Source: Psychrobacillus soli
GTDB taxonomy: Bacteria > Bacillota > Bacilli > Bacillales_A > Planococcaceae
Direction: 5' to 3'
Length of the DNA stretch: 51,099 bases
Assembly: GCF_006861775.1 (NCBI RefSeq)
Contig: NZ_VDGG01000014.1
Span: 1 to 51,099 of the forward strand
Positions within the stretch are counted from its first letter, which is position 1. Each line of letters starts with the position of its first letter. Positions 5,410 through 28,655 of this stretch are shown one piece after another. A program made the translations under genes and the position numbers. The notes below the pieces were generated by a model. The model had not been told where the DNA came from. It searched no databases and was given only the letters and a program-made list of their open reading frames with translations.

Positions 5410-5439
5410 CTAGAATTCACCTCCTTACATAAAAAAATT

Positions 5440-5455: not shown

Positions 5456-5616
5456 GTAATTATTGTATTCAGTAGTCTATTTATTCTCTAAACAGAGTAA
5501 CTAATTTTCCAAAAGTAATATTATGAATGTCCCTGTGTAAAAGCATTTCAAAAGAAGGATTTCTACAAACGTATGTGGAATGTATCTTAGAAGCGAACAT
5601 TAGAGGAGGATTTTAT

Positions 5617-6087: not shown

Positions 6088-6147
6088 ATATTGCTAATTT
6101 AGCTTCTTTAAGTATTTTCCTCTTTAGGTAGCCAGTATATAAAGACC

Positions 6148-6660
6148 ATGAATTTATGGGATTTAACACGGCTACTTGAAGGGGATTTTATTATGTTAGT
6201 GGGTCTGGATATTTTAAGGCTTGTCTACTCGTACGTTAATAATAAAGAGGTTGCAGAGGATTTAACCCAAGATATATTTGTGAAATTTTATCAATCCATA
6301 CATACATTTAAAGGTAAATCTAAGCTGAAAACATGGTAGTGTCGAATTGCTATTAATCATTGCAAAGATTTTCTGAAGAGCTGGTATACCAAACATGTTT
6401 TCATTGCAGAAGATACAGAAAGTAGTTCAACACAAAAAGAATTCGTAGAAGAAGTAATTATACAAAAAGAAGCGAATGATCAATTAATTTCTGCGTTAAT
6501 GACATTGCCTATTAAATACCGTGAAGTGATTTATCTCTATTACTATGAAGAACGACTCATTAAAGAAATCGCGGTACTCACCGAAGTTAGTGAGAACACA
6601 GTTAAAACGAGACTCAGACGTGCCAAACAACTTCTAGAAGAGCGGTTGGAGGAGAAGTAA
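6148..6660 (+). pseudogene. ECF sigma factor, broken by an in-frame TAG
   Basis: Reading one frame across 6148-6660 gives an ECF sigma factor. Region 2 shows DILRLVYSYVNNKEVAEDLTQ and FVKFYQSIHTFKGKSKLKTW; after a TAG at 6337-6339 the frame goes on with CRIAINHCKDFLKSW, and region 4 shows LPIKYREVIYLYYYEERL with IAVLTEVSENTVKTRLRRAKQLL. The expected junction is TWLYRIAINH, so TAG stands where Leu is normal. The N-terminus before region 2 also looks altered. One stop in an otherwise well-kept frame suggests recent inactivation (or a sequencing error). The downstream partner gene is also damaged, which supports true decay. Confidence 0.75.
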
Positions 6661-6988
6661 TGGAAGAGCGTTTAAAAAACCTGATAAAATCAATGGAAGA
6701 ATTATAGTAATCGCGTGTAAAGTACATTATCCATATGGTAAGTTTCTACTCATTGGGGCGGTTGCTCTTTATAGCATTCAGCTAGTTACGAATATTGCAA
6801 TGATGCTAGGTTTTCTCCCAATGATTTTTATGTCACTGCCATTTATTGGTTATTGCTTGATACCTACTATATTTAATGCATTTTTAATCGGTGTCGTGCT
6901 AAGTGTATATCGACGTAAGGACCTAGTTGCTAGTGGTTTTATAACAAAGGATAATCTTCTGAAACCTAATCCCTCCCTATACGACTAA
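6660..6988 (+). pseudogene. Decayed anti-sigma/membrane protein gene
   Basis: The ATG at 6660 overlaps the sigma factor stop, the normal arrangement for an anti-sigma gene, and reads MEERLKNLIKSMEEL before a stop at 6705-6707. In the next frame, hydrophobic coding resumes (YGKFLLIGAVALYSIQLV, then MIFMSLPFIGYCLIPTIFNAFLIGVVLSVYRRKDL) to a stop at 6986-6988. The two pieces therefore look like one gene split by a frameshift and probably a deletion of its middle. The surviving 3' part from the ATG at 6800 has no ribosome site. Confidence 0.55.
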
Positions 6989-7005
6989 CTGGTTGGAGGT
7001 GTGCA

Positions 7006-7359
7006 ATGAATAAAATGATCGTAAGTCTAATGATAGTTGTATGTTCCATCTATTTAACTGGCTGTATGGGGCCGGAAACGGAAGTGAAGGTATCTAAAAA
7101 TCCAAATGCAGATATTTTTCAATGGGAAGGTTTAATTTATCAATCTAATATCGACTGGGTGGATGAGATTAAACTCACAAAACATGAGTTGGTTGGAGAA
7201 GTAGGGGGAATTTCCGATAATAAAAAACAATTTAGCAATGGAGTGGCGAACAAATTGCCAATAGGAGCGAAGATTTTCTCCGCAAAAGAGCGGCAAGATA
7301 TATTAATTGTAGAATATGATGAGAACAGTAAAAAATACTTAGCGCTTAGTGAAGGATAA
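7006..7359 (+). CDS. Small lipoprotein next to the ECF sigma locus
   Basis: A 117-residue exported lipoprotein. The signal peptide MNKMIVSLMIVVCSIYLTGC ends in lipobox LTGC with the modified Cys at position 20. The mature part is a small soluble domain with several short strands (IFQWEGLIYQSN, KLTKHELVGEVGG, IGAKIFSAKERQDILIVEYDE), resembling lipoproteins found beside ECF sigma/anti-sigma pairs in Bacillales. The ribosome site TTGGAGGTG precedes the ATG. The gene is intact although the two regulatory genes before it are broken, so its expression may be lost or driven from elsewhere. Confidence 0.7.
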   Translation: MNKMIVSLMIVVCSIYLTGCMGPETEVKVSKNPNADIFQWEGLIYQSNIDWVDEIKLTKHELVGEVGGISDNKKQFSNGVANKLPIGAKIFSAKERQDILIVEYDENSKKYLALSEG

Positions 7360-7426
7360 AGGGAGCGACAGTCTCCCTTCCTGCCGTCATTATGTAATAG
7401 TGGTAAAAGTAAAATTGATAATTCAA

Positions 7427-7840
7427 TTAGGGACTATTAGTAGAGCTGACCTGTATTGTAAAAGCCTGTTGTTCGATATGATTTTTTATCATCATATCGT
7501 TGAAAATCTGAAGTATTTCTTGTTGTTGATGTTCAGTAACTTCCTTTATATTTTCTAGAATGATATTAAGCTTAATATCATTTGAAGAATATATCATGGC
7601 CGCAATGGAATAGTCGTATCCCGCTTTCTCCATTTCAATGCCCACTTGCTCAAAGAAACCTCCATCTGTATAAAGATACTCTTGAAAATCATATAAAGCT
7701 TGCTCTTCCTCAGCGGAAATTTGTAAAGGATGCTTACTTGTTTCTTTTTCCGATCCAGATTGCTGAGGATACATAAATAAAGCAACGAGCATCAATAGAA
7801 AGAAACCAACACTGCCTATAAGGCGATTCCATTTCCTCAC
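7427..7840 (-). CDS. Small single-pass membrane protein
   Basis: A 137-residue protein with an N-terminal membrane anchor (VRKWNRLIGSVGFFLLMLVALFMYP) and an acidic, helical exterior domain with no Cys. The GTG at 7840 is chosen because AGGAGGAG lies 5 bases ahead; the longer frame from 7867 would put that ribosome site inside the coding region. The pattern YTDGGFFEQVGIEMEKAGYDY then IYSSNDIKLNIILEN suggests one alpha/beta domain. I do not recognise a family. It converges on the lipoprotein gene at 7006-7359, with no clear terminator between. Confidence 0.6.
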   Translation of the reverse strand: MRKWNRLIGSVGFFLLMLVALFMYPQQSGSEKETSKHPLQISAEEEQALYDFQEYLYTDGGFFEQVGIEMEKAGYDYSIAAMIYSSNDIKLNIILENIKEVTEHQQQEILQIFNDMMIKNHIEQQAFTIQVSSTNSP

Positions 7841-8033
7841 ACTGCTCCTCCTATAGTGTTTATTCAAGCATATGTTTACATGGTTGAAATAATAACCATA
7901 AGTAGTTCTTCAAGGCTTTTCACAAATTACTTACTTTTGAAGGGAAAGTAGTGAGGAAAAATTCCTCTAGTGCTCACTTCCCAATCTTACCTGGAGGAGA
8001 TTGTCCTATAAAAAATGTGTCACAATCATCGTC

Positions 8034-8110
8034 GTCTCACTTGAAGTAAACTTGTTATTTTAATATTTGGTTGCTTTCACTAGCTGGTTTGTTGCTCTAT
8101 GCCATTTTTT
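8034..8110. repeat. Dispersed TTGGTTGCT-type intergenic repeat, copy 1
   Basis: GTCTCACTTGAAGTAAACTTGTTATTTTAATATTTGGTTGCTTTCACTAGCTGGTTTGTTGCTCT, described here in pieces, aligns along its length with 51000-51075 at roughly 80 percent identity by eye. Core units are AGTAAACTTG, TTTGGTTGCTTTCAC and GTTGCTCT. It is non-coding on both strands as far as I can see. Confidence 0.6.
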
Positions 8111-8157
8111 AGTTTGATTTATTCCGTAATTACATAATATTGGTATTTGTTGAACTT

Positions 8158-9127: not shown

Positions 9128-9179
9128 TTGACAAATCGTCTGAATATTGTAAAATGTTAATTAGTAAATTGGTTTACTA
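9128..9179 (+). promoter_or_regulatory. Promoter and operator 1 of catabolic island A
   Basis: The -35 box TTGACA (9128-9133) and -10 box TAAAAT (9150-9155) are 16 bp apart. Just downstream, at 9162-9179, is the palindrome TAGTAAATTGGTTTACTA, perfect 7-base arms around TTGG. It covers the likely start of transcription, a classic repressor position. Its centre and outer bases match a second palindrome at 9593-9610. The LacI-type regulator at 19363-20388 is the obvious candidate to bind both; that link is inference. Confidence 0.7.
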
Positions 9180-9217
9180 TTTGAAAGCCGATTGAATAGG
9201 ATAAAGGAGATGTTCAA

Positions 9218-9592
9218 ATGAAAATCATGCAATTAGAAGATGCGGAAAGAACATACTTTCCGACAGGCAGAAATACAAGAGTTTTAATTGGGGCACACAG
9301 TCCCGTGCAAGCAGAAAACTTTGTGATGGGGTACGTAGAGTTAGATCCAGGTGGGTCAGTGCCAATGCATGAACATATACAAGAAGAAGTTTATTATATA
9401 GTCGAAGGTGCCGGGGCAATTGAAGTAGGAGATGAAACAAGAGAAGTTCGTACAGGTGACGCTATCTATATTCCAACAAATAAACCTCATTGCTTAACGA
9501 ATACGTCAGAGAAGTCGATGACGATGATGTTCGTATATTCTCCGGGTGGTACAGTGAAACATTGGGCAGAAGAACAACAAAATTTACGATAA
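9218..9592 (+). CDS. Cupin-domain protein
   Basis: A 124-residue single-domain cupin. Motif 1 is seen as GGSVPMHEHIQEEVYYIVEGAG, with two His and Glu as metal ligands, and motif 2 as GDAIYIPTNKPHCLTN, with the last His ligand. The whole protein is about one cupin barrel, as in small isomerases, lyases and oxygenases. It is the first gene of island A, behind a strong promoter and operator, with AAAGGAGATG as ribosome site. In sugar or uronate pathways small cupins often act as isomerases or epimerases; the reaction here is unknown. Confidence 0.8.
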   Translation: MKIMQLEDAERTYFPTGRNTRVLIGAHSPVQAENFVMGYVELDPGGSVPMHEHIQEEVYYIVEGAGAIEVGDETREVRTGDAIYIPTNKPHCLTNTSEKSMTMMFVYSPGGTVKHWAEEQQNLR

Positions 9593-9610
9593 TAGGAAAC
9601 CGGTTTATTA
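9593..9610 (+). promoter_or_regulatory. Operator 2 of catabolic island A
   Basis: TAGGAAACCGGTTTATTA lies directly after the cupin stop. Its core AAACCGGTTT is a perfect palindrome typical of LacI-family sites, and 14 of 18 positions match operator 1. The centres are 431 bp apart. It could act as a roadblock inside the operon or as an auxiliary site for looping. Confidence 0.6.
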
Positions 9611-9626
9611 AAAAGGAGGAATTCAA

Positions 9627-10826
9627 TTGCTTAAATCAGTGAAAGTACTAAGCTTTACACATTTCTTACAAGGGCCAGCTGCGGTTCAGTTTTTAGGAGA
9701 CCTCGGAGCTGATGTGATAAAAATCGAACATCCGAGGGGTGCTTATGAAAGGCATTGGTCGGGACTCAATGCATTTTTAAACGAAGAAAGTATTTTCTAT
9801 CTTCTTGCTGGAAGAAATCAGAGAAGTTTAAGTATCAACCTTCAGACAGAGGAAGGAAAAGAAATAATTTACAAAATGGTTAAAGAGGCCGATGTGTTAG
9901 TAGAAAACTTTAGACCGGGTGTTATGGATCGCCTTGGATTCGGTTACGAAGAATTGAAAAAAATAAATCCATCACTAGTTTACTGCTCATGTTCGGGATT
10001 TGGCTCCACAGGACCTTATAAAGATCGTCCCGGTCAAGATTTACTTCTTCAGGCGATGAGCGGTTTAGCTAGCTTGAACGGAAAAAAGAAGGATGCACCG
10101 GTACTTGTTGGAAGTGCAATTATAGACCAACACGCAGCAACTCTTGCAGCTATGGGCATCCTCGCAGCTTTATACGAGAGAAAAGAAACGGGCAAAGGGA
10201 AGAAAGTAGAAAGTAATCTACTAAGTGCTGCGCTAGATTTACAGATTGAACCGTTTAACTATTATCTCAATGGTTTTCCACTTTACGAAAGAAGTGAATC
10301 AGGTATTTCATCAAGATTTCATCAAGCCCCTTATGGAGTATTTGAAACATCGGATGATTATCTCTGCTTATCCTTGACGAATACGGCTAAATTAGCTGCT
10401 GTATTTGAGAATGATGAATTCTTGCAATGGAGCTATGAAGACCAGTTTGACGAAAGAGAGGCAATTAATACAAAAGTTGCAGAGCATATTAAAAGGAATA
10501 CAAAACAGTTTTGGTTCGACAAATTTGATGCGCACCAAATCTGGTATTCACCCGTCAATAACTATGAGGACATAGAGAAGGACCCTCAAGTGGAATGGAA
10601 CAAAAACATTCTGGAATTTGATCATCCAACAGCAGGTAAAGTTCGCTTATTATCTCACCCGGTTAGATATGACGGTCAAGCACCCAAAGTAAGGAAAGTT
10701 CCGCCGAAGCTTGGCGAACAAACAGAAGAAGTATTAAAAGAAGCTGGATTTAACGATAAAGAGATTGCTAATCTCATTGATAAAGGCGTTGTTACAAAAA
10801 GTCAAGAAGTTGTGAGCAAAAGTTAA
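9627..10826 (+). CDS. Class III CoA-transferase (CaiB/BaiF family)
   Basis: A 399-residue enzyme of normal family length that moves CoA between carboxylic acids. The N-terminal Rossmann part has LGDLGADVIKIEHPRG and the motif LVENFRPGVMDRLGFGYE; the stretch GFGSTGPYKDRPGQDLL is a strong family signature. The expected catalytic Asp is D167 in VGSAIIDQHAATLAAMGI. The TTG at 9627 follows AAAGGAGGA. In island A it probably activates an imported or pathway-made carboxylate; with the acyl-CoA dehydrogenase and crotonase it recalls CaiB of the carnitine operon. The actual acid is not known. Confidence 0.9.
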   Translation: MLKSVKVLSFTHFLQGPAAVQFLGDLGADVIKIEHPRGAYERHWSGLNAFLNEESIFYLLAGRNQRSLSINLQTEEGKEIIYKMVKEADVLVENFRPGVMDRLGFGYEELKKINPSLVYCSCSGFGSTGPYKDRPGQDLLLQAMSGLASLNGKKKDAPVLVGSAIIDQHAATLAAMGILAALYERKETGKGKKVESNLLSAALDLQIEPFNYYLNGFPLYERSESGISSRFHQAPYGVFETSDDYLCLSLTNTAKLAAVFENDEFLQWSYEDQFDEREAINTKVAEHIKRNTKQFWFDKFDAHQIWYSPVNNYEDIEKDPQVEWNKNILEFDHPTAGKVRLLSHPVRYDGQAPKVRKVPPKLGEQTEEVLKEAGFNDKEIANLIDKGVVTKSQEVVSKS

Positions 10827-10862
10827 TATCATTCAAACTACAAGTTGAAATTGGAGGTTTAT

Positions 10863-11906
10863 ATGAAAACGTTAGGTGTAGGAGTTATTGGACTTGGTGC
10901 AATTGCACAAATTCATTTTGAAGCCATAAAGAAATGTGAACAATTGAAACTTACAGGAATCTATGCACGAAAACAAGATCAGGCACGCAGTGAAGCGGAA
11001 AAATGGGGATGCGTTGCATTCCAATCACCCGATGAGTTAATGGCAAATCCCAATGTAGATATCGTTGTATTGCTAACACCACCAGGTATTCATAAAGAAC
11101 TAATTAACAAAGCAATTCACTATAATAAACATATTTTGCTAGAAAAGCCGATTGGAACATATTTGAAGGATATTGAGGAATACATTCAAGCAGCTTCAGA
11201 AAAAAACTTGTCGTTTTCCGTTGTCTCCCAACATAGATTCGACAATGCTTCCCAGCTTGTCAAAGAAAAAATTGAAAGGGGTTACATTGGAGAAATTGTT
11301 GGTGCAAACTGTTCAGTGAACTGGTATAGAGACACAGACTATTACCAAGGTTGGAGAACAAAACAGGAATTGGCTGGTGGCGGTGTGCTAGCGATACAGG
11401 GGATTCATACAATCGACTTAATGCTTTGGTTTTTAGGTGAAGTTGAGAGTGTGAAAGGCTATGTAACGAATCGATTGCACAAAGATATCGGTGTTGAAGA
11501 TACTGCAATGGCGACAGTTAAGTTTGCAAATGGCAGTTTGGGTAGCATTAGCGCTTCGACTAGTTCGTACCCAGGCTTCCCTGCAAGATTAGAATTGTTG
11601 GGAACAAACGGAAGTATTACGATTGAAGGCGATCGACTCGTTTTCTACCAATCTAACTTGGATGAAAATCCGCCGATTGTTCAAGTGAAAAGTGCTAAAA
11701 CAACAGATAGCCCATCAGATGTTTCAATTGAACCATTTGTCACTCAGTATGAAGACGTTATCCGATCAATCGAGCAAAGTAAAGAACCGCTTGTTTCAGG
11801 CGAAGAGGCATTTAAAGCATACAGATTAGTAGCTGCGATTTATAAATCTTCTGAAACAGGACTAGAAATTAATTTAAAAGAGGTGTCAGCATGTCTTACG
11901 AAATAA
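10863..11906 (+). CDS. Gfo/Idh/MocA family NAD(P)-dependent oxidoreductase
   Basis: A 347-residue oxidoreductase. The N-terminal Rossmann fold begins GVGVIGLGAIAQIHFEAIK, the catalytic motif EKPIG follows at about residue 97, and the C-terminal alpha/beta domain holds GGGVLAIQGIHTIDLMLWFLG with the conserved His/Asp pair. The ATG at 10863 fits the GGAGG at 10852-10856. Its stop overlaps the start of the next gene by 16 bases, so the two are translationally coupled. Family members oxidise sugars, inositols or their acids, often at a ring carbon. That chemistry paired with DUF993 is the core of the unusual pathway in this island. Confidence 0.88.
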   Translation: MKTLGVGVIGLGAIAQIHFEAIKKCEQLKLTGIYARKQDQARSEAEKWGCVAFQSPDELMANPNVDIVVLLTPPGIHKELINKAIHYNKHILLEKPIGTYLKDIEEYIQAASEKNLSFSVVSQHRFDNASQLVKEKIERGYIGEIVGANCSVNWYRDTDYYQGWRTKQELAGGGVLAIQGIHTIDLMLWFLGEVESVKGYVTNRLHKDIGVEDTAMATVKFANGSLGSISASTSSYPGFPARLELLGTNGSITIEGDRLVFYQSNLDENPPIVQVKSAKTTDSPSDVSIEPFVTQYEDVIRSIEQSKEPLVSGEEAFKAYRLVAAIYKSSETGLEINLKEVSACLTK

Positions 11907-13078
11907 ACTTGCCAAACCAAGAAGGGAAAGTCACTACCTACAAGTTAAATGAGCAAAAGGACTTCCAATTACCAGAAAAGCCCTTTCAAAGCAGAATCGC
12001 ATATGCCGCAGCCCATGTCGTATTTAATCCGTACTCGGATATAGCAAACAAAGATAGTTCCTCTGTGGATTGGGAAAAAACGATAGAGTTTAGGAAGTAT
12101 CTTTGGTCACTAGGATATAAAATTGCCGAAGCCATGGATACTGCCCAAAGAGGTATGGGCCTAGACTGGGAACTTTCAAAAGAACTTATTAAAAGATCCT
12201 TACAAGAATCAAAAATCACCGGCGGCGGAGTCGCTTGCGGAGCGGGAACTGATCATCTAATCGAAGATAAGGTCTATAGTTTAGATGAAATTATCGAAGC
12301 TTATCTTGAGCAGACTACCTATATTGAAAAATATGATGGCGAGATTATTTTAATGGCTAGCCGAGCATTAGCGAAAGCTGCCAAGTCTCCAGAAGATTAC
12401 ATTTATGTGTACAGGAAAGTTTTGGAGCAAGTGGAAAAACCGGTGATACTTCATTGGCTCGGAGACATGTTTGATCCCAAACTTGCAAACTATTGGGGGT
12501 ATGAAGATCTAGATAGCGCCATGGACACTTGCCTAATGGTAATTCAGAATAATACAAATAAAGTGAATGGCATTAAACTATCACTTTTAGATAAAGACAA
12601 AGAAATAAGTATGCGGAACATACTTCCAAGCACTGTGAAAATGTATACAGGAGACGATTTTAACTATCCTGAACTCATACAAGGTGATAAAGACAACTTC
12701 AGTCATGCATTGCTAGGAATTTTTGATCCAATTGCTCCAATTGCCGCTTATGCTTTAGCTAAATTAGACGAAAATGATATGGAAGGATACAAAGCAATCC
12801 TTGAACCAACCGTTCCTTTAGCCAGACATATCTTCCAGACGCCAACCTTTCATTATAAAACGGGAGTTGTTTTTCTAGCATATTTAAACGGGCACCAAAA
12901 TCACTTTAGAATGGTCAATGGAGCCGAAAATAATCGTTCAATAGTCCATCTATCAGAACTATTTAAACTTGCTGATCAAGCAGGTGTGTTGATTAATCAA
13001 AAACTAGCAATTCAAAGAATGAATCAGGTACTTCTTCTTTCAGGTGTTTATGAAGAGGAAACTGTTACTGCATTTTAA
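11891..13078 (+). CDS. DUF993 protein, aldolase-like (dihydrodipicolinate synthase fold)
   Basis: A 395-residue protein of the DUF993 family, whose members are predicted TIM barrels of the class I aldolase type. Recognisable parts are FQSRIAYAAAHVVFNPYSD, the GGGVACGAGTDHL loop, EKPVILHWLGDMFDP and NKVNGIKLSLLDKD, where K229 may be the Schiff-base lysine by analogy with dihydrodipicolinate synthase. The late motif TFHYKTGVVFLAYLNGHQNHFRMVNG is also typical. The gene overlaps the Gfo/Idh/MocA gene. A retro-aldol cleavage of the oxidised sugar or acid is a fair guess, not shown. Confidence 0.85.
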   Translation: MSYEINLPNQEGKVTTYKLNEQKDFQLPEKPFQSRIAYAAAHVVFNPYSDIANKDSSSVDWEKTIEFRKYLWSLGYKIAEAMDTAQRGMGLDWELSKELIKRSLQESKITGGGVACGAGTDHLIEDKVYSLDEIIEAYLEQTTYIEKYDGEIILMASRALAKAAKSPEDYIYVYRKVLEQVEKPVILHWLGDMFDPKLANYWGYEDLDSAMDTCLMVIQNNTNKVNGIKLSLLDKDKEISMRNILPSTVKMYTGDDFNYPELIQGDKDNFSHALLGIFDPIAPIAAYALAKLDENDMEGYKAILEPTVPLARHIFQTPTFHYKTGVVFLAYLNGHQNHFRMVNGAENNRSIVHLSELFKLADQAGVLINQKLAIQRMNQVLLLSGVYEEETVTAF

Positions 13079-13097
13079 TAGGAAGAGTTTATCTAAT

Positions 13098-13250
13098 GAT
13101 GCTTGTGATTTCCGCTACAGACGGATGCTTTCCGCGGGAGTACCGTGAGCCACAGGCTACTAGGAGGCCAGTCAGCTAGTCGTTGCGACAGAACGTCGCG
13201 AACTTAGACTGTCGCCTTCCGCTCCAATGAACGGTGCTTGGCTAAAATGA
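13098..13250. repeat. GC-rich intergenic repeat inside island A
   Basis: The block contains TTTCCGCTACAGACGGATGCTTTCCGCGGGAG in its first third and GTCGCCTTCCGCTCC near its end, a type frequent between genes of Planococcaceae. It is far richer in GC than the coding DNA around it and splits the island between the DUF993 and acyl-CoA dehydrogenase genes. No gene is seen between 13079 and 13296. Confidence 0.6.
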
Positions 13251-13296
13251 ACAGTGAAGTATAACAAAATCAATAAGAAAAGGAGCATTGAGTCAA

Positions 13297-14451
13297 ATGG
13301 ATATTTTTTTAAACGATGAGGATGTAATGTTAAAAGAGACAGCTAGAAACTTTGCTATCAAGGAGATTCAACCTGTTATTAACGAATTGCACGAAAAAGA
13401 GCAATTCTCGGCAGAAATTCATCAGAAGATGGGAAATTTAGGATTCGTAGGGGTACCTTATCCTGTAGAATACGGTGGCTCAGGCGGGACATGGCTTCAG
13501 TTTGCATTAATTCATGAGGAAATCTCAAGAGTGGATTCAGGTGTTGCCAATGCGATTATGGGAAATTGTTCCGTTAGTACACTATTGAACACGTTTGGTA
13601 CTACAGAACAAAAGCAGAAATGGCTACCTAATTTATTAAGCGGTAAAGGACTTGGTGCAATTGCCTTAACCGAACCAAATGCTGGTTCAGATGCAAATAA
13701 TTTAAGAACAACCGCAAAATTAGAAAATGGAAAGTGGATACTGAACGGAGCTAAAACATTTATTACAAATGCCGGTACTGAAATAACAGAACTAATTATT
13801 GTGGCAGCGGTTACAGGTATCGATGATCGAGGAAGAAAAAATATTAGTACGTTTATTGTTCCGAAAGAAACAGAAGGGTTAATTATTAGTCCGGCACTTA
13901 AAAAGATTGGCTGGCATACAAGTGACACAAGAGAACTAACATTTGAAAACTGTGTCATTCCGGAAGAGTATCTATTAGGAGAATTGCACAAAGGTTATCG
14001 TCAAGCACTTCAGGCAATTACAGCAGGCAGATTTCTCATTGGATCAATGGCAGTAGGACTAGCTCAAGGAAGCTTGGATTATAGCATGACTTATATCAAC
14101 GAAAGAGAGACGTTTGGCAAGAAATTAAGAGATTACCAGGATGTACAGTTTAAAATTGCCGACATGGCTACAAAAATTCATTCAGCAAGATTAATGGTGT
14201 ATTATGCAGCTGCCTTATGCGACAAAAATAAAGAATTTTCTAAAGCAGCTTCAATGGCTAAAATGCAAGCTTCCCAAGTAGCGGTGGAAGTGGCTAAAGA
14301 GGCCGTTCAACTACACGGTGGTTATGGTGTCATGCGAGAATACGATGTGTCCAGGCATTATCAAGCATCCAAAATATTTGAAATTGTAGAGGGAACCTCT
14401 GAAATTCAAAAAATTATTATTTCCCGGGGATTAATGAAGGAGTATTATTAA
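13297..14451 (+). CDS. Acyl-CoA dehydrogenase
   Basis: A 384-residue FAD enzyme of the short/medium-chain acyl-CoA dehydrogenase family, normal length. Signatures are IALTEPNAGSDANNL (flavin and substrate loop), WILNGAKTFITNAG, RETFGKKLRDYQDVQFKIADM and the C-terminal QLHGGYGVMREYDVSR. The catalytic base is expected to be the first Glu of VEGTSEIQ. The ATG at 13297 is preferred; the TTG at 13288 is only two bases from the AGGAG. It would oxidise the CoA ester made by the class III CoA-transferase to a 2-enoyl-CoA, or work as a CaiA-like reductase in reverse. Confidence 0.9.
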   Translation: MDIFLNDEDVMLKETARNFAIKEIQPVINELHEKEQFSAEIHQKMGNLGFVGVPYPVEYGGSGGTWLQFALIHEEISRVDSGVANAIMGNCSVSTLLNTFGTTEQKQKWLPNLLSGKGLGAIALTEPNAGSDANNLRTTAKLENGKWILNGAKTFITNAGTEITELIIVAAVTGIDDRGRKNISTFIVPKETEGLIISPALKKIGWHTSDTRELTFENCVIPEEYLLGELHKGYRQALQAITAGRFLIGSMAVGLAQGSLDYSMTYINERETFGKKLRDYQDVQFKIADMATKIHSARLMVYYAAALCDKNKEFSKAASMAKMQASQVAVEVAKEAVQLHGGYGVMREYDVSRHYQASKIFEIVEGTSEIQKIIISRGLMKEYY

Positions 14452-14497
14452 ATACTTCTGACAAATTTAACACAAAATTGAATTGGGGGGTTTTTAA

Positions 14498-15502
14498 ATG
14501 AAAAAACTATTTCTTTTGGCTCTTACACTCATTATGATGATGGTTATAGCTGGATGTGGAAGTGAAGCATCAGGATCAGGCGATAAAGATTCGAAAACGT
14601 ATACAATCAAAATTGGAAATGGAAACCCAGTGGGTGAACCATCTGCAGATATATTGGATGGCTTTGTTAAAGAAGAGCTAGAAAAAAGATCAGATGGTCA
14701 ATTTAAAGTACAAGTATACTTGAATAGTCAATTGGGTTCAGAGACTGAACTGTTAGAGCAGGTGAAAAGTGGAACGCTACAAATTGCAACTCCGTCTGCC
14801 CCTTCCTACCTTGTACCAGATTTAAGTGTTTATTTTCTACCCTACTTGTTTGAAACACAAGACGATTTATGGAAAGTAACAGATGGTCCAATTGGGCAAA
14901 GTCTTACGAAGCAATTAGAAGAACAAACAAACTCTAAGGTTCTCGGTTGGTGGAGTACTGGAATCAGACATATTTTCTCTAAAGAGAGAGAAATTAGACA
15001 AGTAGATGATCTTAAAGGAATGAAGATTAGAGTAATGGAAATCCCAGTGCTAATGGATGTGTTCAAAGGTCTAGGGGCGTTACCGACACCACTGCCTTAC
15101 TCAGATGTTTATGGATCACTTACTACAAATGTTGTTGACGGCGCGGATAATGACCCATCAGGTTATAAAAATATGAAGTTTTACGAAGTTGCAAATAATT
15201 TCTCGATAAGTAATACGTTGAATTACCCGAAAGCGGTTATTATCAATGAAGAATTTTATAACTCACTTCCGAGTGATTTACAAAAAATTATAGATGAAGT
15301 TTTTGCTGAAGCTCAAGAAAAACAACGTGATCTATTTATGGAAGTTATGGACAGTGATATAGCTGAGTTAAAAGATAAAGGGGTCAATGTAATAGAAGAT
15401 GTAGATATAGAAAGCTTTAAAGAATTGGCAGAGCCAATCTGGAGAGGAAGTAAAGATATAAACCAAGACTTACTAAATGAAATATTAGAAAGTAGAAATT
15501 AA
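14498..15502 (+). CDS. TRAP transporter solute-binding lipoprotein (DctP family)
   Basis: A 334-residue extracytoplasmic binding lipoprotein with a lipobox (IAGC, Cys at 20). The family features are visible: TYTIKIGNGNPVGEPSAD at the start, LLEQVKSGTLQIATPS, GIRHIFSKEREIRQVDDLKGMKIRV, where the Arg of KIRV normally clamps the ligand carboxylate, and the later NVVDGADNDPSGYK. TRAP systems import organic acids, including sugar acids, using a sodium gradient. As the only transporter of island A it should define the pathway substrate as a carboxylate. GGGGGG precedes the ATG at 8 bases. Confidence 0.9.
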   Translation: MKKLFLLALTLIMMMVIAGCGSEASGSGDKDSKTYTIKIGNGNPVGEPSADILDGFVKEELEKRSDGQFKVQVYLNSQLGSETELLEQVKSGTLQIATPSAPSYLVPDLSVYFLPYLFETQDDLWKVTDGPIGQSLTKQLEEQTNSKVLGWWSTGIRHIFSKEREIRQVDDLKGMKIRVMEIPVLMDVFKGLGALPTPLPYSDVYGSLTTNVVDGADNDPSGYKNMKFYEVANNFSISNTLNYPKAVIINEEFYNSLPSDLQKIIDEVFAEAQEKQRDLFMEVMDSDIAELKDKGVNVIEDVDIESFKELAEPIWRGSKDINQDLLNEILESRN

Positions 15503-15510
15503 ATGATAAA

Positions 15511-15539
15511 AAAGGAAAAGGCGATAAGCCTTTCCCTTT
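15511..15539 (+). other. Intercistronic hairpin after the TRAP binding-protein gene
   Basis: AAAGGAAAAGGC (15511-15522) pairs with GCCTTTCCCTTT (15528-15539) around GATAA, one mismatch, followed only by TATAA. It is placed between the binding-protein and permease genes, where partial termination or 3'-end protection commonly keeps the binding protein more abundant than the permease. Confidence 0.6.
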
Positions 15540-15564
15540 ATAAACTAGTTAGCAGGAGGTCACC

Positions 15565-16851
15565 ATGGAAATAGTTCTCATGCTCTTAATTCTTATGGTC
15601 ATATTAATTATGATAAATGTGCCAATTTCATATTCGATTGGGATTGTGTCTATTAGTTACTTTTTTATTAAAGACATTAGCTTACTTACGATTCCCCAAA
15701 GAATGTTTTCAACAATTAACACGTCGACATTGTTTGCTATCCCATTGTTCCTATTAGCAGGTATGCTTATGAATAAAGCGGAAGTAACCGATAAGCTTTA
15801 TCACTTAGCATTTACATTAATAGGTCATATTAGAGGTGGTCTAGCCCATGTTAACGTTTTAAGTTCGATGATGTTTGCATCCATGACTGGTTCAGCTATG
15901 GCGGACATTGTAGGGTTAGGAACTGTGTCAGCAACCGCTATGGAAAAGAAAGGATTTAAGAAAACATTTGCTGCTGCTGTGTCACTTTCAGCTAGTACAA
16001 TTACTCCAATCATCCCACCAAGTATTATTCTAATCGTTTATGGTGTTGTAGCGGAAGTTTCTATTGGACGATTATTTTTGGCAGGAATTTTGCCAGGTTT
16101 AGCGATAGGGCTAATTTTGATGCTGTATATCTATTTGGCTAGTTTCAAAAAGGACTTTCCAAGGGAAAAGTCACGTGCATCTTTTGGAGCTGTAGTAACT
16201 GCTTTCAGACATGCAATTTTACCTCTATTTATGCCTGTAATCATTTTAGGGGGAATACTGCTAGGAATATTTACGCCAACAGAGGCAGGCGCAGTTGCGG
16301 TATTGTATGTTTTGATTATTGGGTTCTTAGTGTATAAAAAGCTAACTGTGAAAATTGTCATTGAAACATTGAAAGAGGTAGCTGCAACTTCGTCAGTGAT
16401 CCTTCTTTTAATTTCAATTAGTGGCATACTTGGTTGGATTATTACGATTGAACAAGTCCCTGTATTATTGACTGATTCATTATTATCACTGACCTCTAAT
16501 CCGATTATTATTTTACTTCTTATCAACGTAATTATATTAATCGCAGGAATGTTTTTGGATGCTACTCCAATTGTTCTTATGTTAGTACCCGTGTTCATGC
16601 CCATACTTTTGAATATTGGCGTAGATCCAGTCCATTTCGGTATTATTATAGGAGTAAACACGATGATAGGGGTTACTACACCTCCAGTAGGTGCAGGTCT
16701 ATACGCCATTAGCGGAGCATTAAAGATAAATGTTATGGATGTCATCAAAGAAATGCTTCCGATGTGGGGTGCCCTTTTTGTTGTTCTGCTTATCATAACA
16801 TTCTGGCCGGGATTATCTTTGACTATACCGAATCTGATATTTGGGAAATAA
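15565..16851 (+). CDS. TRAP transporter large permease (DctM family)
   Basis: A 428-residue membrane protein with about twelve hydrophobic helices, the normal DctM size. Typical stretches include MFASMTGSAMADIVGLGTVSATAM, ASTITPIIPPSIILIVYGV and IFTPTEAGAVAVLYVL, which are the hairpin and proline-rich loops of the ion-transporter fold, and TTPPVGAGLYAISG near the end. AGGAGGTCACC lies before the ATG. It transports the bound acid together with sodium, working with the small subunit encoded next. Confidence 0.92.
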   Translation: MEIVLMLLILMVILIMINVPISYSIGIVSISYFFIKDISLLTIPQRMFSTINTSTLFAIPLFLLAGMLMNKAEVTDKLYHLAFTLIGHIRGGLAHVNVLSSMMFASMTGSAMADIVGLGTVSATAMEKKGFKKTFAAAVSLSASTITPIIPPSIILIVYGVVAEVSIGRLFLAGILPGLAIGLILMLYIYLASFKKDFPREKSRASFGAVVTAFRHAILPLFMPVIILGGILLGIFTPTEAGAVAVLYVLIIGFLVYKKLTVKIVIETLKEVAATSSVILLLISISGILGWIITIEQVPVLLTDSLLSLTSNPIIILLLINVIILIAGMFLDATPIVLMLVPVFMPILLNIGVDPVHFGIIIGVNTMIGVTTPPVGAGLYAISGALKINVMDVIKEMLPMWGALFVVLLIITFWPGLSLTIPNLIFGK

Positions 16852-16872
16852 GTAGAATTGAGAGGTGTAAAC

Positions 16873-17364
16873 ATGATTGAAAAAATCAGAAAGTTGGAAC
16901 AGAGGATTCTAAAACTTGAAGAGTGGTTTATACTAATTGCCTTAGCATGTATCGTTTTTTTTCAAATCATGCAAGTCGTGTTTAGGTATATCTTGTCTTC
17001 ACCAATAGGTTGGGTGGATGAATACTCTCGATTTTTATTTATTTGGATGATCATGATTGGTTCGGCAGTGGCCGTTCAAAAAATTGCTCATTTTAATGTT
17101 GAGTTTCTTGTGGAAAAATTCAATTTACGCATACAGTGGTTAACGAATGTAGTAGTAACAATCTTATCATCTTCTTTCGTTATAATCTTGATTGTTGCCG
17201 GGTTTCGATATTTAGTTGATATGAAAGGGAAAGTTTCATCAGCGACAGGAGTTCCGATAGAGATACTGAATTTTGCTATTCCAGTAGGTTTTACATTAAT
17301 GGCTATGCACCTACTATTCAATATTATTCTAAAAAATAAAAAAGAAGAATTGCCAGTGGAGTGA
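16873..17364 (+). CDS. TRAP transporter small permease (DctQ family)
   Basis: A 163-residue protein with four membrane helices: EWFILIALACIVFFQIMQVVFRY, SRFLFIWMIMIGSAVAVQ, WLTNVVVTILSSSFVIILIVAGF and FTLMAMHLLFNIIL. The motif FRYILSSPIGWVDEYSRFLFIW is the DctQ signature. The ATG at 16873 follows GAGGTG; the TTG at 16858 lies before that site. The gene comes after the large permease, whereas most TRAP operons have the order binding protein, small, large. Confidence 0.88.
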   Translation: MIEKIRKLEQRILKLEEWFILIALACIVFFQIMQVVFRYILSSPIGWVDEYSRFLFIWMIMIGSAVAVQKIAHFNVEFLVEKFNLRIQWLTNVVVTILSSSFVIILIVAGFRYLVDMKGKVSSATGVPIEILNFAIPVGFTLMAMHLLFNIILKNKKEELPVE

Positions 17365-17368
17365 TCAT

Positions 17369-18415
17369 ATGACTAAATCTAAAAAAATGAAGATTGTAAG
17401 TCCACTTGAAATAAAAATAACAGATCAAAAAATACCAAAACTTCAAAATGGTGAAGTTTTAATTAGGATTACTCATACAGGTATTTGCGGAACTGACCTG
17501 AAAATATTCGATGGTACTATCCCTTATGTAAAAGAAGGAACGTTGAAGTATCCGCACACACCTGGCCATGAATGGGTAGGCATTATTGAAAATGTAGGTC
17601 CCGAAGTTGATCCGACTATTCAAATTGGAGATAGGGTTACGGGGGAATGTCATATTGGATGCGGGCATTGTGAGGATTGTGCGAACGGTAGGTCTAACGT
17701 CTGTCAAAAAAGAGCTCGAATAGGAATTTTAGGCGTGGATGGTTCATTTGGAAATTTTATGGTATTTCCAAATAAAGCAGTGCATAAAATTCCTGATACG
17801 ATAAGTGATAAGCAAGCTGTATTAATCGAACCTTTAACGGTAGCCACTTTTGCGCTTGATAAATTAGAAAAAGTTCCAGGTTCTACTCTTGTTATATTTG
17901 GTTTAGGTCCTATTGGATTATTAGTTTCCGAAGTTGCTAGGGTAATGGGGGCAGCTAAAGTTATTGGCATTGATATGAATAGCCAACGCATGGAGACAGC
18001 CTTACGCATGGGCTGTGACATTGTTCTTAATGCAGGGGATCCGGACCTAAGTGTAAAAGTGAAAGAGGCTACTTATCAAAAGGGGCCAGATATAATTGTA
18101 GAAGCTTCAGGAGTCGGTAGTGTCTTGTCGTTGTCATTAAATCTCATCCGAGCCGGGGGCCAATTATCCCTTATAGGCCTTTACAGAGACGATGTAACAT
18201 TAGATGCAAATCTTATCCTTACAAAGGATCTTAAAATACATGGGAATATGGCAAGTGCACGGGTTTGGGAAAGGGCTATTAGACTACTAGAATCAGGTAA
18301 ACTAAATATAGATAGTTTAATTACACATCGCTTCCCTTTTGAAAATAGCGATGAGGCATTCGCAACTGCTTATTATAAAAAAGAAGAGTCGATTAAAGTG
18401 ATTGTAGAAATGTAA
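17369..18415 (+). CDS. Zinc-dependent medium-chain alcohol dehydrogenase
   Basis: A 348-residue MDR dehydrogenase resembling threonine, sorbitol or idonate dehydrogenases. Catalytic zinc ligands are C40 (HTGICGTDLK) and the GHE pair at 66-68; the structural zinc site uses C98, C101, C104 and C112; the NAD fold begins VIFGLGPIGLLVSEVARVMGA and ends its second strand on Asp (GIDMN), which favours NAD. It starts four bases after the TRAP small subunit. In the island it should oxidise a secondary alcohol, for example a hydroxy acid. The true substrate is open. Confidence 0.85.
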   Translation: MTKSKKMKIVSPLEIKITDQKIPKLQNGEVLIRITHTGICGTDLKIFDGTIPYVKEGTLKYPHTPGHEWVGIIENVGPEVDPTIQIGDRVTGECHIGCGHCEDCANGRSNVCQKRARIGILGVDGSFGNFMVFPNKAVHKIPDTISDKQAVLIEPLTVATFALDKLEKVPGSTLVIFGLGPIGLLVSEVARVMGAAKVIGIDMNSQRMETALRMGCDIVLNAGDPDLSVKVKEATYQKGPDIIVEASGVGSVLSLSLNLIRAGGQLSLIGLYRDDVTLDANLILTKDLKIHGNMASARVWERAIRLLESGKLNIDSLITHRFPFENSDEAFATAYYKKEESIKVIVEM

Positions 18416-18439
18416 GAACTGGAAAGGGGATTAAAAGGA

Positions 18440-19222
18440 TTGAGTAAAATTCAAGTAGATATTCAAGGCGATGGAATAGCCATCCTAACCTTAAACTATC
18501 CGGAAAAAAGAAATGTATTATCCTCATTTATCATGAAGGAACTTAATGATCAAATAAAGAGGCTATATACAATGAAGGAAAAAGTAAAAGTGCTAATCAT
18601 TCGTTCTGAGTATCCGGCATTTTTTAGCAGTGGTGGAGATATCAAAGAGTGGCATAGCTATTCAAAATCAGAAGCCTATGATGAAGGGACTAGTGGAAGC
18701 AAGATTTTTTCCCAAATCGAAAATAGTCCATTTATAACGATTGCCTCGATTAGCGGCACTTGCCTAGGTGGCGGTAGTGAATTAGCTTTATCTTGTGACC
18801 TTCGAATTTGCACGGAGGATGCAGTATTTGGTCAACCGGAAGTTATTCTTGGAAATGGCCCAAGTTGGGGAGGCTATTACCGACTTGCAAGAACAATCGG
18901 TGTTTCCAAAGCAAAAGAATGGATTCTTCTAGGGGAAAACTATTCAGCTAAGCAAGCAGAGCAGTGTGGTTACGTTCATAAAGTTACAAGGGACACAAAG
19001 GAACTGCAAAAAACGACCCATCGAATTGCTAGACAGCTTGCGAGTAATTTTCAAGCTGCGAAGGTTTCAAAACTTATTTTAAATCAGATTGAAGAAGAAA
19101 TGGTACCAACCAATGTAATGGTTGATGCATTGAGTGCATCTATATTTGCGGAAACAGAACTCTCCATTACTCGGAAAAAAGCATTTTTAGACAAGAGATT
19201 AAATGAAGTAATTGTAACTTAA
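18440..19222 (+). CDS. Enoyl-CoA hydratase/isomerase (crotonase family)
   Basis: A 260-residue crotonase. The oxyanion-hole loops are FSSGGDIKEW and SGTCLGGGSELALSCD, and both canonical acid-base glutamates are present, E114 and E134, spaced by 20 as in rat crotonase, so hydratase activity is likely. The usual PGxGGTQRL is replaced by GPSWGGYYRL, suggesting a non-standard acyl group. TTG at 18440 is used after AAAGGGGA. It would hydrate the enoyl-CoA formed by the dehydrogenase of the island, as CaiD does in carnitine metabolism. Confidence 0.85.
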   Translation: MSKIQVDIQGDGIAILTLNYPEKRNVLSSFIMKELNDQIKRLYTMKEKVKVLIIRSEYPAFFSSGGDIKEWHSYSKSEAYDEGTSGSKIFSQIENSPFITIASISGTCLGGGSELALSCDLRICTEDAVFGQPEVILGNGPSWGGYYRLARTIGVSKAKEWILLGENYSAKQAEQCGYVHKVTRDTKELQKTTHRIARQLASNFQAAKVSKLILNQIEEEMVPTNVMVDALSASIFAETELSITRKKAFLDKRLNEVIVT

Positions 19223-19307
19223 GCCAATTTTATTACCTACTTCGCTATTGGAATGGCCTAGAGGAGTCCCGTTTTTTCACAAAAAAATTAATTATGACAA
19301 TTCAAAG

Positions 19308-19327
19308 TATAATGGTAAACTTGCCAT
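19308..19327 (+). promoter_or_regulatory. Possible promoter/operator of the LacI-type gene
   Basis: TATAAT (19308-19313) runs straight into an imperfect palindrome ATGGTAAACTTGCCAT (19312-19327). No convincing -35 box is 17 bp upstream. The palindrome differs from the two island operators, so self-regulation is only a possibility. Confidence 0.3.
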
Positions 19328-19362
19328 TAACTATGGAGGAAAATTCTATCAGGAGATGCGAA

Positions 19363-20388
19363 ATGACAAAAGAAAATGCAACAATTCAAGATGTGGCGAA
19401 TCTTGCAGGTGTTTCAAAAGCGACTGTATCAAAATATATAAATGATATCCCCTATGTGGCAACTAAAACGCGAAAGAAAATTGCAGAGGCGATAGAAGAA
19501 CTTCAATTTCGTCCAAATACGTTTGCACGTGGCTTAGCGAATAAATCGCTTAGTTTAATTGGTTTAGTTATTTCGGACTTTCAAGTATCAATCAATATGG
19601 AACTCATTAAAGCCATTGAAGTAGAGTCTAGACGACTTGGGTATAATTTAGTGCTTGTCAGTACGGATGATGATGATAAGAAAGAGGAAGAAGTTTGCGA
19701 GATTTTGATTAACCAGTATCGGCATTTAGATGGAATTATCCTTGCGAATATGAGAATAAATGGCACGAGTTTATCAAAGCTGGAAGGTGTTTTTAAAAAT
19801 ATTGTTATGGTCCATCGTCATGTTGAATCTATGGCAGTTGACTATGTCGTAATTGACGGCTATTTGGGTGGGAAGTTAGCTGCTGAGTATTTAATTAGGC
19901 AAGGTCATAAAAATTTAGCAATGATTTCTGGTCCTACAAACATTTTTCAATTTAAAGAAAGAATCGAAGGATTTAAAAGTGTTATAAAAGAGTATGGGAT
20001 TGAAGAGCAAGCATTGATTATTGAAACCGACCAATCTTTAGAGGAAGGATACAGGGCAGCAGAAAGAATCGTTTTAGAACACAAACTGGCTACGGCTATT
20101 TTTGCAAGCAGTGATATGTTGGCACTAGGGGTTATAGAGGCGGCAACCCACTATGGTTGGGATATTCCTAATGAAATATCGTTAATTGGTTACGATAATA
20201 TTTTCTTTTCTAAGTTGGCTAGAGTGCCCCTTACTACAATTGATAGCCGGATGAAAGAACTAGGGACAACTGCTGTCCAACTACTCAATGAACGTATAAA
20301 GGGAAGAGCTACTTTAGAACAAATTAAGTTACGGCCTTCTTTAGTAGTTAGAGATTCATGCATTAAATTAAGTGTCCCAAATAAGTAA
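19363..20388 (+). CDS. LacI/GalR-family transcriptional regulator
   Basis: A 341-residue regulator. The N-terminal helix-turn-helix and hinge are clear: TIQDVANLAGVSKATVSKYIN followed by VATKTRKKIAEAIEELQFRPN. A periplasmic-binding-like effector domain follows, with SLIGLVISDFQVSINMELIKAIE, VVIDGYLGGKLAAEYLIRQGH and SLIGYDNIFFSKLARVPLTTI. The ATG at 19363 is used because AGGAGATG precedes it and the protein then starts like its family. It closes island A and probably represses it by binding the two palindromes near 9170 and 9602 until an intermediate or substrate is present. Confidence 0.9.
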   Translation: MTKENATIQDVANLAGVSKATVSKYINDIPYVATKTRKKIAEAIEELQFRPNTFARGLANKSLSLIGLVISDFQVSINMELIKAIEVESRRLGYNLVLVSTDDDDKKEEEVCEILINQYRHLDGIILANMRINGTSLSKLEGVFKNIVMVHRHVESMAVDYVVIDGYLGGKLAAEYLIRQGHKNLAMISGPTNIFQFKERIEGFKSVIKEYGIEEQALIIETDQSLEEGYRAAERIVLEHKLATAIFASSDMLALGVIEAATHYGWDIPNEISLIGYDNIFFSKLARVPLTTIDSRMKELGTTAVQLLNERIKGRATLEQIKLRPSLVVRDSCIKLSVPNK

Positions 20389-20468: not shown

Positions 20469-20711
20469 GTTTGCCATTCAGGAATAAAGAAAGGAACCAA
20501 ATGTTGAAATTAGTAAAAATTTTTATTGGAGATGGGGGAGAAGGCACAGTCCAATCATTCATTGGGACTGCACAAGAACTTCAGAAGATTAGTAATTATT
20601 AATTGTCTTATATATGTTATTTCGAATAATAAGAGTATTTTCGTAAAAGATAAATATTTTTCTATGGAATCCATTATTTTTAGCATAGTGGGTAAAAAAG
20701 GGGGATTGCTA

Positions 20712-20903
20712 GTGGGCAGATTAAAAGATAAGGGAAAAATTATCACTGACGTTACAAATGGACAAGGTACAGCAAAGCCGCGTTTGTTTACTAATGAAGG
20801 GACTAATCTTGTCGTAACAGATATACAAGAGGAACTATTGGCTAAAAAAACGGAAGTAATCGATAAGATGCACACGTTTCTACTTTGTTTAACAGTAAGG
20901 TAG
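20712..20903 (+). pseudogene. Relic of a short-chain dehydrogenase/reductase, 5' end
   Basis: From the GTG at 20712, after a fitting AAAGGGGGA, the frame reads VGRLKDKGKIITDVTNGQG, then KPRLFTNEGTNLVVTDIQEELL, then stops after 63 residues. This is clearly the first beta-alpha-beta of an SDR enzyme, where the normal form is GRLKDKVAIITGAASGIG and LFAEEGAKVVVTDI. The glycine-rich cofactor loop has lost key glycines (ITDVTNGQG), and the remaining 180 or so residues are missing. It cannot be an active enzyme. The 20475-20711 stretch before it holds no convincing gene; one 33-residue frame at 20501-20602 is not recognisable. Confidence 0.7.
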
Positions 20904-22025: not shown

Positions 22026-22400
22026 TTGGCCAATGTAGACGAAAATAGATTTTTCGATTTTGAAAAGGACCTACAGCAGCTTAGGGGGAAACATATTCGG
22101 TGTAACTACAATATAAGAGGACATTTCGAAGTACAGTTAAATGGCAAAATGTTTTCTACACTTGTTTATAAAACATTGGATTATTTAGCTATTTATCGTG
22201 AGAAAATGGAAGGTCGATACTTATTTTTCATCGATTCCGAATCGGAAGATAATGAAGAAATTAGGCATAAAATGCATTTATTACCCCAAAATTTACAATC
22301 ACTCAATTTACCAGTCCATTTCTCAGAAATACAAAAGGAAGTGTATGTAAAAAACTGGATTCGTAGCATTCAGGATTATGGAACAGAAATTCTAGATTAA
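22026..22400 (+). CDS. Unknown protein, fused in frame behind the TnpB fragment
   Basis: A 124-residue frame starting at a TTG (22026) that is not preceded by a ribosome site; in fact it is the in-frame continuation of the second TnpB piece, open from about 21840. It is not TnpB: it reads NRFFDFEKDLQQLRGKHIRCN, GHFEVQLNGKMFSTLVYKTLDYLAIYREKMEG, YLFFIDSESEDNEE, LPVHFSEIQKEVYVKNWIRSIQDYG. The acidic, mixed alpha/beta character and its place right before a SUKH protein suggest another immunity-type protein whose own 5' end was replaced by the mobile-element fragment. I do not recognise a family. Confidence 0.5.
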   Translation: MANVDENRFFDFEKDLQQLRGKHIRCNYNIRGHFEVQLNGKMFSTLVYKTLDYLAIYREKMEGRYLFFIDSESEDNEEIRHKMHLLPQNLQSLNLPVHFSEIQKEVYVKNWIRSIQDYGTEILD

Positions 22401-22438
22401 TTGGCGGTGCTCTTAACTTATACACAGGGAATGAAATA

Positions 22439-22876
22439 ATGAAATGGAAAAATTACATAGAGTCAATTTCGAAAGATTATCATTTTAAAACACCTGCAAC
22501 GAATGCGGAAATAACGCTTCTTAAAGATGAGTTAAATATTGAATTACCTGGAAAGTTACTAGAATTATACTATGAAACAAATGGGATATTTGATGAACAT
22601 GCATGTCCTCTTATTTGGTCTATAGAACAGATAATAGAAGACAATTTATTTTTTAGAAATTTTGGTGACTATAAAGATTTCTATATGCATTTCGATCATT
22701 TACTATTTTTCTCAGATGCCGGCAATGGGGACTTATTTGGGTACCGAATATTAAATGGGAGCATTCAAGATGATGAAATTTTTGCATGGAATCATGAAGA
22801 CGATAGTAGAACATGGGTCTCCTCTTCGTTAGAAAACTTTGTGAAAGGCTGGATTACGGGAGAAGTTACTGTTTAA
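22439..22876 (+). CDS. SMI1/KNR4 (SUKH-1) family immunity-like protein
   Basis: A 145-residue cytoplasmic protein. SUKH features are seen in order: ATNAEITLLKDELNIELPGKLLELYYETNGIF (the helix then the LPxxYxxxNG core), LIWSIEQIIEDN, LLFFSDAGNGDLFGY, IFAWNHEDDSRTWVSSSLENFVKGWITG. In bacteria these proteins usually neutralise polymorphic or contact-dependent toxins. No toxin gene is next to it in this window, so it is an orphan immunity gene, perhaps kept for protection against neighbours. A weak AGGGA is the only ribosome site. Confidence 0.75.
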   Translation: MKWKNYIESISKDYHFKTPATNAEITLLKDELNIELPGKLLELYYETNGIFDEHACPLIWSIEQIIEDNLFFRNFGDYKDFYMHFDHLLFFSDAGNGDLFGYRILNGSIQDDEIFAWNHEDDSRTWVSSSLENFVKGWITGEVTV

Positions 22877-28633: not shown

Positions 28634-28655
28634 TATCAAAAAGGGGTGTAAGTGG

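Follow-up and report, generated by a model that had tools for sequence, protein, structure and literature searches.

This analysis concerns a set of eleven genes in Psychrobacillus soli (Bacillota; assembly GCF_006861775.1), one of which encodes a protein of the family DUF993. The genes lie within the first 51,099 nucleotides of contig NZ_VDGG01000014.1; we call this whole stretch the window, and the gene set with its upstream sites (9128-20388) the island. An earlier reading of the letters and open reading frames (ORFs), here called the sequence-only reading, had placed on one strand a cupin, a class III coenzyme A (CoA)-transferase, a Gfo/Idh/MocA dehydrogenase (Gfo), DUF993, an acyl-CoA dehydrogenase (ACAD), a tripartite ATP-independent periplasmic (TRAP) importer, a zinc-dependent dehydrogenase (ZnDH), a crotonase and a LacI regulator. 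All eleven ORFs, between 9218 and 20388 on the + strand, were found open at the coordinates it gave, and each protein scored above the Pfam curated cut-off for its family. The interval of that reading began at 9128, which is also the first base of a promoter-like site. The features are as follows, with dihydrodipicolinate synthase abbreviated as DHDPS.

9128..9155, + strand: promoter-like site TTGACA-16-TAAAAT, consensus match 11/12, the best in the region
9162..9179, no strand: putative operator O1, TAGTAAATTGGTTTACTA, a palindrome with two perfectly complementary 7-base arms, six bases past the -10 box
9218..9592, + strand: small, single-domain cupin, the first gene (Cupin_2, 75.9 bits; 61% identity to the L144 cupin)
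9593..9610, no strand: operator-like site O2, TAGGAAACCGGTTTATTA, between the cupin and CoA-transferase genes
9627..10826, + strand: class III CoA-transferase (CoA_transf_3, 342 bits; nearest solved relative SUGCT)
10845..11906, + strand: Gfo/Idh/MocA dehydrogenase of its own subtype (Pfam GFO_IDH_MocA; nearest solved proteins 3q2i/3q2k)
11891..13078, + strand: DUF993, a DHDPS-fold protein with lysine 229 in strand 6 (Pfam; AlphaFold model and fold match)
13085..13285, no strand: dispersed intergenic repeat between the DUF993 and ACAD genes, splitting the gene set; 12 further partial matches in the genome
13288..14451, + strand: ACAD (Pfam; 52% and 50% identity to the ACADs of L145 and L146)
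14498..15502, + strand: TRAP substrate-binding protein DctP (Pfam; R157, R178 and N218 conserved)
15565..16851, + strand: TRAP large permease DctM (Pfam)
16858..17364, + strand: TRAP small permease DctQ (Pfam)
17369..18415, + strand: ZnDH (Pfam zinc ADH; 52% identity to the L144 ZnDH)
18440..19222, + strand: crotonase-family hydratase (Pfam ECH_1)
19294..20388, + strand: LacI-family regulator (PF00356, 67.8 bits; 58% identity to the L144 LacI)

The DUF993 gene starts at 11891, before the Gfo gene ends at 11906, which bears out the overlapping pair of the sequence-only reading with an overlap of 16 bases. Its statement that thiolase and CoA ligase are missing also held, as models for neither were among the Pfam matches of the eleven proteins. 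In alignments, the enzymes have kept the residues that we take to be catalytic: the Asp of IIDQHA in the CoA-transferase, the Glu of VEGTSEIQ in the ACAD and the two acidic residues of GGGSELA and GQPEVILG in the crotonase. The lysine of the EKP motif, which we count among these residues, is likewise retained in the Gfo. Family-level searches found no specific family for the cupin, and the ZnDH scored below every listed NCBIfam cut-off. The repeat at 13085-13285 includes a marginal match to Rfam Bacillaceae-1 (13157-13223, - strand; 35.9 bits against a cut-off of 35). A second dispersed intergenic repeat, at about 8007-8146, has many matches in this and in same-genus genomes.

The Gfo and the CoA-transferase each served as a query against 348 genomes of the class. 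The best matches outside the own genome were, for both proteins, adjacent genes on one contig of a genome from another family (G188). At this locus, L144, the cupin (61% identical), LacI (58%), CoA-transferase (68%), Gfo (51%), ZnDH (52%) and DUF993 (57%) genes stand side by side. Upstream of the L144 cupin, at 12771-12788 on the - strand, there is a site, TAGTGAACCGGTTTACTA, that is identical to O1 in 15/18 bases. The search of L144 with O1 gave this one site (two when both strands are counted) against 0.04 expected, and 1/200 shuffles reached two. The grouping of the genes exceeds chance: six of them stand together again in L144, along with the operator that both loci have. The sequence-only reading had treated its set as one unit, and for this core, operator included, the unit was found again; conservation of the set elsewhere extends in L144 to six of the eleven genes and not to the ACAD, crotonase and TRAP genes.

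The O1-type site fits a putative local LacI operator, as judged from sequence, and the island would then be repressed by its own LacI. O2 differs by two mismatches, on either strand, from the pattern built from O1 and the L144 site; because the pattern was built from those two, O2 is the only new site of that search. Operator sites elsewhere in the genomes of the window and of L144 were considered and rejected, with counts near those of the reversed control (4+4 against 3+1 in G000, and 1+1 against 3+3 in G188).

In a tree, the island CoA-transferase falls in a clade with those of L144, L145, L146, L147, L164, L165 and L166, with support of 96/90 (12 rows, including duplicates). This clade is rare. 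At E 1e-110 or better, only the own genome matched among 398 genomes of the phylum sample, as did 3/348 genomes of the class sample among the matches listed. L145 (from genome G072) and L146 (G188) have a same-clade CoA-transferase with LacI, TRAP, MaoC, an FrdA-like flavoprotein, crotonase and ACAD, and no DUF993; these LacI-TRAP-MaoC-FrdA-like-crotonase-ACAD-CaiB operons are a sister pathway. L147 is one more G188 locus of the clade. Same-clade CoA-transferases also occur with crotonase, flavoprotein and LacI on two Rhodococcus plasmids (L164, L166) and a Glaciihabitans plasmid (L165). A crotonase also occurs in L147, L164, L165 and L166, and of these L165 has DUF993, in a triad with glycerate kinase that starts about 4 kb from the CoA-transferase group. 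Altogether, DUF993 lies within the examined stretch of 3/8 clade loci, of which three (L144, L146 and L147) share one genome with a single DUF993. The island Gfo is the sister of the L144 Gfo (100/100) and is far in the tree from the Gfo that usually partners DUF993. Another locus of the same genome, L155 (5751-10358), combines TRAP genes with a Gfo that shares 36% identity with that of the island.

The island DUF993 scored 592.5 bits against a Pfam gathering score of 24, covering the model from 1 to 382 of 382, and is 54-61% identical over its full length to 28 other aligned DUF993 proteins. An AlphaFold model and a fold match revealed a DHDPS-type (beta/alpha)8 fold, the same as that of the solved PF06187 protein 4DNH (SMc04132, "uncharacterized protein"). 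Identity to the DHDPS/N-acetylneuraminate lyase superfamily was 11-18% in the rows listed, and the DHDPS Pfam model was not among the matches of the island protein at E 1e-3. In DHDPS, the Schiff-base lysine lies where strand 6 ends. K229, in the strand 225-231, is invariant in 29/29 aligned DUF993 proteins and was read by eye onto this lysine in a profile alignment with a probability of only 7.7%; a comparison with one single DHDPS matched nothing. The case for K229 as a Schiff-base lysine is built on fold and conservation, a strong sequence alignment being lacking. The sequence-only reading had called DUF993 aldolase-like; the fold upholds this, and DUF993 is a candidate lyase or aldolase.

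DUF993 is found in many genomes or plasmids of Paenibacillus, Bradyrhizobium and Sinorhizobium. We found no described function: the literature searched, which mostly did not extend to subscription papers, yielded no mention of DUF993, PF06187 or IPR009334. In the available part of a paper on the PhaR regulator, SMc04132 is tabled as "uncharacterized protein" with a value of -1.69. In our tree the island DUF993 has a long branch, and its locus lacks the usual partner genes. The tree hints that the link between DUF993 and CoA genes arose twice, but this idea was set aside, as a single clade was not rejected (p 0.165).

The usual setting of DUF993 was apparent from the 82 other loci nearest the window (L002-L083), each covered with at most 10 kb of flank on either side and some with far less. 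A Gfo of the canonical subtype accompanies DUF993 in 79 of these, with one further locus having a fusion, and an isomerase of the AP_endonuc_2 family is present in 80 (at a distance in L020). The fusion (L018, 8771-11152), from a Gemmatimonadetes metagenome-assembled genome, is a Gfo/Idh/MocA-DUF993 protein of 793 residues. The island shares with the triad of Gfo, DUF993 and isomerase the position of Gfo, directly before DUF993 and overlapping it. Its Gfo is of another subtype, with 20-27% identity (24% to the canonical partner in L165) and a separate place in the tree, and the island adds CoA genes. Classing the island as a usual DUF993 triad was therefore rejected, with the isomerase missing and the Gfo of another subtype.

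A different picture emerged from 13 annotated plasmid loci with DUF993, a non-random choice for which the PLSDB gene tables are incomplete. CoA-transferase, ACAD, crotonase or MaoC is present in 11 of them, and no thiolase is annotated in any of the 13. In the two remaining loci the Gfo, DUF993 and isomerase genes are consecutive; one of these loci also has a CoA ester lyase gene, on the other strand at a distance of 3-4 kb. Since 11/13 of these loci carry CoA genes, the link between sugar oxidation and CoA chemistry recurs, with differing CoA-transferase families. Paracoccus, Roseateles and Sinorhizobium meliloti have in common an eleven-gene order of aldo-keto reductase (AKR), family I CoA-transferase, crotonase, glycerate kinase, AKR, ACAD, short-chain dehydrogenase (SDR), DUF993, isomerase, EtfB and EtfA, the AKRs being on the opposite strand. 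By tblastn, all eleven genes were found on pSymA of S. meliloti 1021 (L227 2233-13817, L232), and the operon is partly present in Sagittula and Rhizobium. Rhodococcus USK13 has a sugar ATP-binding cassette (ABC) carrier, glycerate kinase, AKR, SDR, ACAD, CoA-transferase, DUF993, isomerase, LacI, alcohol dehydrogenase and Gfo, which is nearly the gene cast of the window, but with a CoA-transferase of another family. In L224, a stretch (5105-6202) with 67% identity to the family I CoA-transferase falls in the unannotated interval that separates crotonase from Gfo, near DUF993.

Like the island, the pSymA-type operon brings together CoA-transferase, crotonase, ACAD, a dehydrogenase and DUF993. 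It has a family I CoA-transferase, SDR, isomerase, glycerate kinase and electron-transfer flavoprotein, unlike the island, which has a class III transferase, Gfo, ZnDH, TRAP and LacI. When 12 pSymA-type proteins were compared with the window by tblastn (E 1e-8, half length), only DUF993, ACAD (37% identity) and the crotonase (30%) matched.

The carnitine system CaiA/CaiB/CaiD also combines a class III CoA-transferase, an ACAD and a crotonase, to which the island adds sugar-type dehydrogenases and DUF993. The sequence-only reading had called the CoA chemistry carnitine-like, and this did not survive the family-level comparison with CaiB and CaiA. The L-carnitine CoA-transferase equivalog gave 141 bits against a cut-off of 413 with the island CoA-transferase, and the crotonobetainyl-CoA dehydrogenase equivalog gave 183.8 bits against 540 with the island ACAD; the crotonobetainyl-CoA hydratase equivalog was not among the 25 matches listed of 73. 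The nearest solved relatives of the CoA-transferase are named SUGCT and formyl-CoA transferase.

The solved proteins nearest to DctP are 4x8r, 4p1l and 7bbr. According to the available parts of PMC11668362, 4x8r holds glucuronate, 7bbr 2-keto-3-deoxygluconate and 4n8y galacturonate, with the warning that co-purified ligands may not be native. In the available part of PMC7660916, the residues of STM3169 that bind glucuronate are Arg150, Arg170 and Asn210. R157, R178 and N218 of DctP lie on the same motifs as in 4x8r, 4p1l and 4ng7/4x04, in an alignment that did not include STM3169. Such a trio of residues may be common to TRAP binding proteins in general. The imported polyhydroxy acid of the sequence-only reading gains support insofar as some of the solved proteins nearest to DctP are described in PMC11668362 as holding sugar acids. 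Naming a substrate from DctP was rejected, as its relatives hold different sugar acids and the residues do not decide between them. Shikimate or quinate was also considered and judged insufficiently supported, the indications being a shikimate-transporter-like major facilitator protein in L164, below its equivalog cut-off, and a shikimate-dehydrogenase-like gene in L158.

There is in our view about an even chance that the island is a single horizontally acquired operon, repressed by LacI, for the catabolism of a hydroxylated carboxylic acid. The TRAP carrier would import the acid, and Gfo and ZnDH would oxidize hydroxyls to ketones. DUF993, acting as a DHDPS-fold lyase, would form a Schiff base between K229 and a ketone and then cut a C-C bond. 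The class III CoA-transferase may load CoA onto a carboxylate of the pathway, ACAD and crotonase could act on that thioester, and general enzymes of the host would complete the breakdown. We infer the repression by this LacI, the substrate class, the chemistry of DUF993 and the order of the steps, whereas the genes, the operator common to both loci, the recurring core, the DUF993 fold and its repeated linkage to CoA genes are observed. A broader proposal, which we hold tentatively and with somewhat less confidence, is that an undescribed catabolic route, distributed across Bacillota, Actinomycetota and Pseudomonadota, uses DUF993 as its C-C lyase. A polyhydroxylated acid would be processed there as its CoA thioester, and the cut would need no thiolase. 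Unrelated families would supply the CoA-transfer and dehydrogenase steps in each lineage, the island being the version with class III CoA-transferase and Gfo.

Several observations weigh against a single operon of this kind. Within the flanks covered, the query CoA-transferases and crotonases are found in 0/82 of the nearest DUF993 loci, and ACAD in one (L040), so most of these loci work without CoA genes. Pfam found no AP_endonuc_2 isomerase among the island proteins, against its presence in 80/82 other loci, and the 19.5-kb stretch of L144 has no ACAD, crotonase or TRAP. The best tree does not place the window and L144 copies of DUF993 as sisters, though a single clade was not rejected, and the profile alignment of the lysine is weak. 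Promoter-like sites are not enriched in the region, as 37 were found against 44.6 in shuffles.

The order of events could also be reversed. The class III transferase could esterify the imported acid, after which ACAD, crotonase and a dehydrogenase (Gfo/ZnDH in the island, SDR in Proteobacteria) would run a sequence like beta-oxidation, with DUF993 cutting last in place of thiolase. We think this unlikely, but it is a serious rival because the order CoA-transferase, crotonase, ACAD, SDR, DUF993 recurs and because a thiolase is neither annotated in the eleven plasmid loci with acyl-CoA genes (with their incomplete tables) nor found among the island proteins. The transferase is, moreover, the only CoA gene that L144 keeps beside Gfo, ZnDH and DUF993. 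On the other hand, DUF993 loci without CoA genes are common, so the substrate of DUF993 need not be a thioester, and other genes for a possible cleavage lie farther off, namely 3-keto-5-aminohexanoate cleavage proteins (L157, L229) and a 3-hydroxyacyl-CoA dehydrogenase (L229). It also counts against this order that we know of no DHDPS-fold enzyme that cleaves acyl-CoA.

The substrate might instead be a glycoside or ester, its sugar half going to Gfo and DUF993 and its acidic aglycone to the CoA enzymes. Sugar ABC carriers, glycerate kinase and DUF2264 near DUF993 and acyl-CoA genes in other loci would agree with such a split, as would the glucuronide-3-dehydrogenase 8tdi, the fourth-best solved match of the island Gfo. 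We consider it quite unlikely, given that the window has TRAP and not a sugar ABC carrier and that Pfam found no glycosidase among the island proteins. Distinctly improbable, in our judgment, is a joining by recombination of two pathways without a common substrate, cupin-CaiB-Gfo-DUF993 and ACAD-TRAP-ZnDH-crotonase. The repeat at 13085-13285 does split the island between them, and L145 and L146 hold LacI-TRAP-crotonase-ACAD-CaiB without DUF993 while L144 holds the other half. However, ZnDH and LacI, which belong to the second half here, are part of the core in L144, the CoA-transferase accompanies both halves elsewhere, and DUF993 is joined to ACAD and crotonase in other phyla too.

Horizontal acquisition of the island, as part of the single-operon reading, is consistent with the distribution of DUF993, which is present in 3/101 relatives, the own genome counted, and in 0/18 other genomes of the genus. 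In the same-genus locus L183, the sequences matching window 6697-7958 and 22032-22875 are collinear without the island; the 4.4 kb that separates them, against 14 kb in the window, holds other ORFs. L181 and L182 also match both flanks; their neighbourhood is rearranged, since window 43.2-46.3 kb sits between the flanks.

As far as the literature searched goes, the pathway seems to be undescribed, and the island itself a variant of a catabolic operon. Searches on the combined gene set found nothing; the pSymA operon could not be searched there by locus tag, and six presumed tags were absent from the one paper checked for them. DUF993 has a solved structure and a wide occurrence, yet no assigned function was found. 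Its repeated association with CoA-transferase, ACAD and crotonase in three phyla, with different families in each role, narrows the search for that function. The S. meliloti 1021 pSymA operon offers an experimental entry to DUF993, and the conserved operator could help to find what induces the Bacillota version. Should DUF993 indeed replace thiolase, it would represent a new way to end CoA-linked degradation.

Just after the LacI gene, the ORF at 20526-20903 had zero Pfam matches at 1e-5, and by eye its end resembles the decayed start of an SDR gene. Farther along, at 27716-42721, Pfam identified a DHDPS-family protein, a family 5 binding protein, a BNR-repeat protein, a GDSL esterase, NanE, a ROK kinase, an RpiR-type regulator, an amidohydrolase and a protein of the glucosamine-isomerase family. 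From these families, the region looks like a sialic-acid (nan) cluster.

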